From the NCBI GenBank assembly GCA_947626765.1, contig CANQTQ010000014.1, forward strand, positions 1 to 36,249: a stretch of 36,249 bases of DNA, in the 5' to 3' direction. Every line of letters starts with the position of its first letter. The stretch's first letter is position 1. The translations under genes and the position numbers were made by a program. This document shows, in pieces, positions 17,474 to 18,968 of the stretch. The notes under the pieces were generated by a model. The model was not told the origin of the DNA, searched no databases, and saw only the letters and a list, made by a program, of their open reading frames with translations. The stretch comes from an uncultured Clostridia bacterium (GTDB lineage: Bacteria > Bacillota > Clostridia > TANB77 > CAG-508).

Positions 17474-17503
17474 AAAAAGAGTAACTTTATTTGTTACTCT
17501 TTT
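17474..17503. terminator. Bidirectional intrinsic terminator between the two XRE genes
   Basis: AAAAGAGTAAC and GTTACTCTTTT form an 11-bp stem with a 7-base loop, flanked by A-rich and T-rich tracts. It serves both convergent regulator genes and overlaps the very 3' end of the repressor gene. Confidence 0.8.
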
Positions 17504-17841
17504 ATTTTTTTATTTATATAGCATCTTATATTACATATACATTTGTAATACATTTTTAGTTCTTCTTTATCACTATTATCAATTATACTATATAAGCTTT
17601 CTCTTACTTGAAGTTTCCTATTTTCGCCTTTACCATAAAGAATATAATCCATTTCTATACCAGTTGCAAAAGCAATTTTATCTAAAGTACTTAAACTTGG
17701 TAAAAAATCTCCTCTTTCAATTTGACCAATGTGCCTTTCTGTTAAATCACATCTTATTGAAAATTTTTCTCTTGATTCTTCAAAAATTTCTTCTCTTATC
17801 CTTCGTATTCTAGCTCCAATTACAATTTTATCTAATGCCAT
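17494..17841 (-). CDS. XRE-family repressor, probable master regulator of the element
   Basis: This 115-residue protein has an N-terminal XRE domain (IGARIRRIREEIFEESREKFS, then LTERHIGQIERGDFLPSLSTLDKIA, the conserved helix-turn-helix and dimer turn) and a basic helical C-terminal third. Such proteins are the ImmR/CI-like repressors of conjugative elements and phages. A strong GGAGGT precedes the start. It is divergent from the sigma-factor operon, and the shared gap contains paired operator-like repeats, fitting a repressor that controls its own gene and the excision module. No ImmA partner lies beside it; the ArdC-like zinc protease at 6360 is a distant candidate. Confidence 0.85.
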   Translation of the reverse strand: MALDKIVIGARIRRIREEIFEESREKFSIRCDLTERHIGQIERGDFLPSLSTLDKIAFATGIEMDYILYGKGENRKLQVRESLYSIIDNSDKEELKMYYKCICNIRCYINKKIKE

Positions 17842-17926: not shown

Positions 17927-18039
17927 TACTTTGTCAAAGTATGTCGAATTTTACAATCAGTTATTTTCGAGTAGTACAAAAATTTGCAGATATTTTTTCG
18001 ACATTGTTTGACAATATCACTGACAAAATTTGACAATAT
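17927..18039. promoter_or_regulatory. Operator cluster between repressor and sigma-factor leader
   Basis: TACTTTG-T-CAAAGTA is a 7-bp inverted repeat at 17927-17941. An 18-base sequence at 17931-17948 recurs in opposite orientation at 17997-18014 with two differences; each copy contains TGTCGAA, the consensus 0A box bound by Spo0A. TTTGACAATAT occurs at 18007-18017 and 18029-18039, 22 bases apart (about two helical turns), and includes -35-like TTGACA. Likely binders are the XRE repressor or a Spo0A-type protein. Confidence 0.65.
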
Positions 18040-18069
18040 TTTTAGATAAAATTTTATATACTCTGCCAT

Positions 18070-18173
18070 AAGGGCTTAATATACCTGTTTTAAGTAGAGC
18101 ATATCTACAAAAGATATATTCTAAGATACTTATGACGAGAGTATTAAATACTTTAACAGGACTTTACGCCCTT
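18070..18173 (+). ncRNA. Structured leader RNA ending in a terminator-like T-run
   Basis: AAGGGC (18070-18075) pairs with GCCCTT (18168-18173), followed by six or more Ts. Inside, CCTGTTTTAAGTA (18084-18096) pairs with TACTTTAACAGG (18149-18160), and two hairpins sit within (ATATCT/AGATAT at 18101-18117 and ATACT/AGTAT at 18126-18144). The result is a branched RNA whose closing helix is followed by a T-run: the form of a transcription attenuator or riboswitch. I do not recognise the class. Confidence 0.6.
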
Positions 18174-18209
18174 TTTTATATGTTGAAAGGAGGTTTTTTA
18201 ATTTTATAT

Positions 18210-18263
18210 ATGTTCCACCTAAACAAGTATGTTTAGCCCAAATTGAAATTTGGGAGGGAACAT
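18210..18263 (+). promoter_or_regulatory. Three-way-junction leader that buries the sigma gene's ribosome binding site
   Basis: ATGTTCC (18210-18216) pairs with GGAACAT (18257-18263). Inside it are CTAAAC/GTTTAG (18219-18236) and an 8-bp hairpin CCCAAATT/AATTTGGG (18237-18254). The ribosome binding site GGAGG (18253-18257) straddles the junction, with bases in two helices, eight bases before the ATG at 18266. Translation of the sigma-like factor should therefore depend on opening this structure. Confidence 0.7.
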
Positions 18264-18265
18264 TT

Positions 18266-18649
18266 ATGAAAACACAAAAAGACTATAGGGAAGAGAAATT
18301 TGATAGTTATTTAAATAAAATTATCATTTTCTCTTCAAAAAAATATTTTAAAAAACAAATAAACATTTGTGATAAGGAAAAGACCATTGTAGATGATGAA
18401 GATGCGTCCACATCCTTACAAAAGATTTTTGCTACAAGTAACACATTTGACGAAATTGAAGACACTTTACAATTAAATAAAGCGTTAGAATCACTGTCTG
18501 CCATTGAGCAGTCGGTGATTTTTTTGCTTTTTAGAGAAGAATTAAGCCAAGATGAAGCTGCAGAAATATTAGAAATATGCTCAAAGTCAGTTAGTAGAAT
18601 AAAATTAAGAGCAATTAATAAATTAAAAAAATATTTGTTAGGAGATTAA
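18266..18649 (+). CDS. Sigma-70-like factor of the element
   Basis: This 127-residue protein carries a C-terminal sigma region 4-type HTH: ALESLSAIEQSVIFLLFREELSQDEAAEILEI and CSKSVSRIKLRAINKL (about residues 75-120). The N-terminal part starts MKTQKDYREEKFDSYLNKII and includes SSKKYFKKQ. It is similar in position and size to Tn916 Orf7-type regulators, which drive excision or transfer promoters. Full sigma factors have a region 2; here it is reduced, so a regulator rather than a complete sigma is possible. It is the first gene of a rightward set ending in xis and int, and its RBS lies in a structured leader. Confidence 0.8.
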   Translation: MKTQKDYREEKFDSYLNKIIIFSSKKYFKKQINICDKEKTIVDDEDASTSLQKIFATSNTFDEIEDTLQLNKALESLSAIEQSVIFLLFREELSQDEAAEILEICSKSVSRIKLRAINKLKKYLLGD

Positions 18650-18832: not shown

Positions 18833-18908
18833 AATTTATGGTAGAAAAATGAAATTATAGTGGATGTATATAAAAGTGAAGGGCAATAAAAAGGAAGCAC
18901 TATATTTT

Positions 18909-18941
18909 AAAGGCAGGTAGGACAAGCTCTTATCTGCCTTT
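18909..18941 (+). terminator. Hairpin between HTH_16-like gene and membrane peptide
   Basis: AAAGGCAG (18909-18916) pairs with CTGCCTTT (18934-18941) around a 17-base loop that can add a few more pairs. A T-rich stretch follows weakly. It may lower expression of the downstream genes. Confidence 0.5.
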
Positions 18942-18968
18942 ATCTAAATTTTAGAAAGGAGATATAGA

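Follow-up and report, generated by a model that had tools for sequence, protein, structure and literature searches.

The leader that precedes the gene heading a Tn916-like excision module probably acts as a cis-acting switch of three RNA strands, in which a strand at the 5' end (A) pairs with a nearby strand (B) in the off state and with a second strand further downstream (B') in the on state. It occupies positions 18070-18265 of the window, i.e. the whole stretch of 36,249 nucleotides that was analysed, which comes from a draft assembly (1.48 Mb) of an uncultured Clostridia bacterium. Comparison of related leader sequences showed that A:B and A:B' are both conserved and that they exclude each other. 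By the same comparison, A:B' is the best-supported pairing of all. Because A thus has a second and well-conserved partner, a single strand that gates both transcription and translation is the likely design. Both pairings are kept in dozens of related elements; hence, the element seems to keep its own activation in check by means of an RNA switch that had not been described before.

The leader lies between a gene for an XRE-type regulator on the minus strand (17494-17841) and the divergently oriented gene for a sigma-70 region 4 protein of 127 amino acids on the plus strand (18266-18649). The latter has the position of Orf7 in Tn916, and profile searches matched its product to PF04545 (35.7 bits, cut-off 24.1) and, above the cut-off, to TIGR02937. 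Downstream of the sigma gene follow, in order, an HTH_16-like protein, an excisionase-like protein, a tyrosine integrase and a tRNA-Arg gene. The order XRE regulator (minus strand), sigma Orf7, HTH_16 Orf8, Xis and tyrosine integrase is that of a Tn916-type excision module (compare pCF10/Tn925), with scores of the Orf8-like, XRE and Xis matches slightly below the curated cut-offs. An earlier note on this DNA had placed the leader before the opening gene of an excision module, and the sigma gene indeed heads such a module. A strong 15-bp hairpin (AAAGGCAGGTAGGACAAGCTCTTATCTGCCTTT) was also observed at 18907-18945, in the gap that separates the Orf8-like gene from the next ORF, a position corresponding to that of canT in Tn916.

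The predicted promoter on the plus strand (18030-18062) consists of TTGACA (18030-18035), a 21-nt spacing and TATACT (18057-18062), with a predicted start at about 18069. Its layout, YGACA-N21-TATAAT, is common to most relatives. In nearly all leaders the -10-like hexamer ends 5-9 nt upstream of strand A, which should make A the 5' end of the RNA. A transcript start downstream of 18210, which the earlier note had named as evidence against its own reading, is not what is predicted, since the predicted start lies near 18069. In most relatives, as in the window (18008-18062), YGACA is spaced 21 nt and not 17 nt from the -10 hexamer, and it often has extra copies 10 or about 22 nt upstream. Judged from this arrangement, the YGACA boxes likely serve the divergent XRE protein as an operator or activator site, or else belong to a promoter without the standard sigma-70 spacing.

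All features of the leader lie on the plus strand. Strand A spans 18070-18097, of which 18072-18090 pairs with B'. Both A and B' (18215-18239) are supported by energies of own versus permuted duplexes, by covariation and by counts on a tree, and B' contains the CCC of the anti-Shine-Dalgarno hairpin. The core of domain 1 (18098-18150), recognised by sequence conservation, carries a loop with the consensus YRCRAAWGA (ACAAAAGA in the window, 18107-18114) and the sequence AAGATACTTATGA (18123-18135). Strand B (18151-18173), which is supported by A:B covariation and a permutation test, makes up the 3' strand of the long stem in domain 1 and runs into a terminator-like run of six T (18172-18177). 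Further downstream, AAAGGAGG (18186-18193) is followed by a T-rich tract and then by a three-way junction (18210-18263). The covariation of the junction is found mainly in its closing stem (18210-18216/18257-18263) and in hairpin b (18237-18243/18248-18254), both also part of the predicted fold; hairpin a (18219-18225/18230-18236) comes from the predicted fold. The Shine-Dalgarno sequence of the sigma gene, GGGAGGG (18252-18258), spans hairpin b and the closing stem and is buried in the junction according to the fold and the unpaired probabilities.

Both domains folded far better than shuffled sequences. Domain 1 (18066-18178), closed by AAGGGC/GCCCTT, reached -28.3 kcal/mol (z = -4.5), and the segment 18180-18275, which folded into the three-way junction, reached -25.6 kcal/mol (z = -3.9); in each case none of 200 shuffles was as good. 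The earlier note had described a branched RNA with this closing stem and a T-run, followed by a three-way junction with GGAGG across it. Both structures and the place of the Shine-Dalgarno sequence were borne out, and relatives of the main lineages keep the closing stem of domain 1, the T-run and the junction. The inner branches fared less well, as they appear in the predicted fold and the inner helices of domain 1, drawn from L054, covaried no better than shuffles. The two halves of the core of domain 1 were more complementary when taken from one species than when combined across species (z = -5.5).

When relatives were compared, B', situated between the closing stem and the anti-Shine-Dalgarno hairpin, turned out to resemble B, the 3' strand of the domain 1 stem. 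The bounds of A, B and B' were set by hand in 29 leaders (28 of the main types and L077), and the permutation controls used the same segments. The mean energy of a leader's own A:B duplex was -21.5 kcal/mol, compared to -15.4 kcal/mol with permuted partners (z = -9.2; 0 of 20000 permutations). For A:B' the corresponding energies were -22.0 and -16.1 kcal/mol (z = -8.2; 0 of 20000), and partner exchange between species thus carried a penalty of about 6 kcal/mol. The signal was also found inside type I (z = -6.6 for A:B and -6.2 for A:B') and inside type II (z = -3.4 and -2.7, respectively). As negative controls, A was paired with the promoter region, the core, the Shine-Dalgarno strand or the coding sequence, which gave z values from -0.9 to 0.6. 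Weak control signals were obtained for A with the linker (z = -2.8 and -2.0) and for B' with the Shine-Dalgarno strand (z = -1.9). In L109, outside the set used for delimiting the strands, A:B' scored -24.9 and was the best of 29 candidate partners.

Covariation was assessed in a MAFFT alignment of 28 non-redundant leaders. Among the cells of A:B', 86.3% were paired, against 38-57% when the strands were slid by 1-3 columns, and 15 of the 23 pairs showed two-sided change (0 of 500 shuffles). The paired cells amounted to 76.9% for A:B and 85.8% for the three-way junction. On a tree of the sigma proteins, A:B' had 19 compensatory double changes on 12 pairs, compared to 0-2 when slid and to a mean of 2.4 and a maximum of 9 in 200 random re-pairings. 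A:B had 16 compensatory double changes, and 0-5 when slid. The covariation that the earlier note had suggested looking for in related leaders is therefore present.

These counts bear on a reading in which the two stages are independent. The leader would then consist of an intrinsic attenuator and a separate junction that masks the ribosome site, and the complementarity of A and B' would be a relic of the sequence duplication behind B and B'. Such a relic would fit the resemblance of B to B'; moreover, each domain folds well alone and the ground state has both. However, compensatory changes are more numerous in A:B' than in A:B, A and B' change together in L049, L056, L059, L063 and L064, and both pairings are kept in divergent leaders with other sequences. 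We consider independent stages unlikely. The earlier note had likewise proposed two stages; an attenuator-like domain followed by a masking junction stands, but their independence does not, as A has B' as its second conserved partner.

The three-strand switch that we favour would work as follows. Transcription is predicted to start at strand A. By default, A would form the long stem with B, which together with the T-run would end transcription. In read-through transcripts, the Shine-Dalgarno sequence would be hidden by the three-way junction and translation presumably repressed. The sigma gene would be off at two levels, because of the terminator-like stem and because of the hidden Shine-Dalgarno sequence in read-through RNA. 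If A were kept from B or released from it, A would pair instead with B', which includes the junction's 5' half. Both the anti-Shine-Dalgarno hairpin and the closing stem would then open, and ribosomes could initiate at the Shine-Dalgarno sequence predicted to be exposed, which would make A:B' the on state. One strand would thus be both an arm of the terminator-like stem and an activator of translation. The trigger may act via the conserved core of domain 1, via slow transcription or via ribosome loading.

Predicted folds point to off as the resting state, since the unconstrained fold contained A:B in all 29 leaders and forcing A:B' cost 9.4 kcal/mol on average, in energies that leave aside co-transcriptional order and pseudoknots. 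With A:B' forced, the mean unpaired probability of the Shine-Dalgarno sequence in these leaders rose from 0.16 to 0.68. At a cost of 9.4 kcal/mol, the exchange must be paid for or bypassed. Within domain 1, neither A nor B had a second partner beyond permuted controls, and the sequence therefore does not show how A would be kept off B before B' is made. A classical antiterminator in domain 1 was rejected, as the complementarity of A or B to the core did not exceed that of permuted controls.

The complementarity of A and B' would equally serve an action in trans. The terminated 5' RNA, from A to the T-run (about 105 nt), would pair via A with B' of read-through transcripts and activate them, and sigma translation would rise with promoter activity. 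If the T-run terminates, this short RNA would be expected to outnumber the read-through mRNA. However, A would be locked in the short RNA by a stem of ~20 pairs with B, A and B' occur together in cis, and lineages without the T-run still have A:B'. We regard action in trans as very unlikely, and retain the switch in cis.

T residues were clearly enriched after strand B. In the 29 leaders, the 9 nt after B contained 6.6 T, compared to 3.4 at random positions, and a run of at least four T was present in 90%, compared to 19% at random positions. A stable stem directly before a T-run, as in intrinsic terminators, is thus found in the main lineages, whereas there are divergent leaders without a T-run. 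A pattern scanner did not call a terminator at the leader, because its loop limit excludes stems that enclose long inserts.

The motif A[AG]GGAGG lies ahead of the junction in 28 of the 28 main-type leaders. In the window (18186-18209) and its relatives, the conserved AAGGAGG and the T-rich tract bear a likeness to a ribosome standby site or to TTNTTT, the motif of NusG-dependent pausing (PMC12288461), which makes them a candidate standby site or pause motif. So strong a ribosome-binding motif just ahead of the junction could also indicate a translation attenuator of the erm/tlrB type, in which a ribosome on a small leader ORF selects the pairing. Divergent leaders with a ribosome site and ATGTAA after B would suit such an attenuator, and there are precedents in the dual attenuation of tlrB (PMC12288461) and in topAI, where a ribosome-sensing uORF controls a masked ribosome site (PMC12121999). 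However, the 28 main-type leaders had no conserved start codon at usable spacing after AAGGAGG, and no conserved frame, length, small ORF or peptide; a leader peptide by the erm/tlrB criterion was accordingly rejected. Moreover, the RTG triplet before TTCC is missing in several leaders, with compensation in its pairing partner. A translation attenuator of this type is therefore improbable, and the exchange of strand A between B and B' remains our preferred one.

The sigma protein was found in 42 of the 385 genomes of the order and in genome contigs; the named relatives are uncultured Clostridia, with one labelled Bacilli. From the relatives, 39 non-redundant upstream regions were collected. 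A model of the junction with its ribosome site matched 36 of the 385 genomes of the order. All of its strong matches, among them a decayed copy in L109, lay at the sigma gene, and a model of domain 1 led to the same places. In a class-wide search of 391 genomes, the window's own genome gave the only credible junction match. The second class-wide match (L112 in G653), as well as L122 in G113 and L121 in G060, were chance matches on inspection. No similar DNA was found in plasmids, phages or viral contigs.

Three divergent types of leader, read by eye from few sequences, were distinguished: L013/L032/L050/L068, L074, and L077/L078. They have other letters, and yet strand A again has two partners, a B close by and the 5' arm of the structure at the ribosome site. 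In the L013 type, an extended A strand includes a copy of the Shine-Dalgarno strand, and L074 adopts A:B' already in its free fold. Directly after B, L013, L032, L050 and L074 have a good ribosome site and the start-stop codon pair ATGTAA. The T-run, described in the earlier note as part of the first structure, is absent from the most divergent relatives (the L013 type, L074 and L077/L078). Since these leaders keep the pairings without it, the translational half is constant and the T-run is variable, and termination is not a universal part. In L053 nearly the whole leader appears deleted and ATTTGGGAGGAACACTTATG alone remains ahead of the sigma gene; it is predicted to be a natural variant without the switch.

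The leader had no match at gathering thresholds in Rfam 15 (riboswitches, T-box and leaders), its best weak match being tsr31 with 22.6 bits against 50. This RNA-family search agrees with the earlier note, which did not recognise a known riboswitch class. A T-box was rejected, as no covariance-model match was obtained. The relatives adjoin tRNA-Thr, Lys or Arg genes with differing anticodons. Sensing of tRNA via AGA in the conserved core was rejected too, because the loop varies to TGA and different tRNA genes adjoin the relatives. We found no description of the window leader in the open-licence literature.

Conjugative and integrative elements have to remain silent most of the time. To our knowledge, little is understood, outside a few models, about what licenses the rare moments at which they become active. 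The conserved switch proposed here, placed before the gene that opens the excision module, would offer a concrete, testable gate. As a more tentative idea, the element would leave the chromosome only once strand A is freed by a signal from the cell, which may be the state of the ribosome. That the pairings persist although the sequences differ suggests strong selection on a pair of locks that a single strand moves, which would be a simple natural design for coupling the control of transcription and translation.

In erm leaders, mutually exclusive hairpins decide whether the Shine-Dalgarno sequence is hidden. In the window leader, exclusive pairings would decide this in a similar way. The tlrB leader is a case of dual attenuation (PMC12288461). 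Unlike erm and tlrB, the main lineage lacks a conserved leader peptide. Control of transcription and translation is combined in the leaders of tlrB and of the TRAP-controlled trp operon (PMC12288461). In trpEDCFBA of Bacillus subtilis, as predicted for the window, transcription attenuation and sequestration of the Shine-Dalgarno sequence of the first gene both depend on alternative structures of a single leader (PMC12288461). By its conserved and mutually exclusive pairings, the window leader likewise opposes a terminator plus hidden site to an exclusive alternative, and would be comparable to the TRAP leader in its working only. In the TRAP leader a protein promotes the OFF structures, whereas in the window pairing of A with its second partner is predicted to free the ribosome site, and the downstream genes differ.

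Closer to the excision module, canT of Tn916 is a cis-acting antiterminator RNA between orf8 and xis that acts processively on distant terminators (PMC11658703). The window leader would also be a cis-acting RNA of a Tn916-like excision-module transcript (PMC11658703); unlike canT, it precedes the sigma gene, and its predicted action is local. The orf7 leader of Tn916/Tn925 resembles it in layout, although sequence similarity is not obvious. In pCF10 (Tn925; L111, 42855-43120, minus strand), a terminator-like hairpin with T6 and a 13-bp hairpin that hides the ribosome site of orf7 lie ahead of this gene, hairpins of which we found no description in the open-licence literature. In the same leader, pairing of GTGAAAGGAG with CTTCCTTTC could provide an alternative of the erm kind, adjoining a possible short ORF (MQQIPLSHWD). 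L111 also carries, beside the XRE gene of Tn925, a match to Rfam SQ2397, a cis-regulator of an HTH transcription factor (43142-43371, minus strand; 229.8 bits). The hairpins before orf7 of Tn916 itself merit re-examination. We tentatively raise the possibility of a new class of RNA regulator, in which one 5' strand common to the transcription and translation gates works via three-strand exchange and would have been kept by selection in four or more types of leader whose sequences are unrelated, each of them before the Orf7-type sigma gene of Tn916-like elements. Dual attenuators are already known; the layout of the window leader is new.
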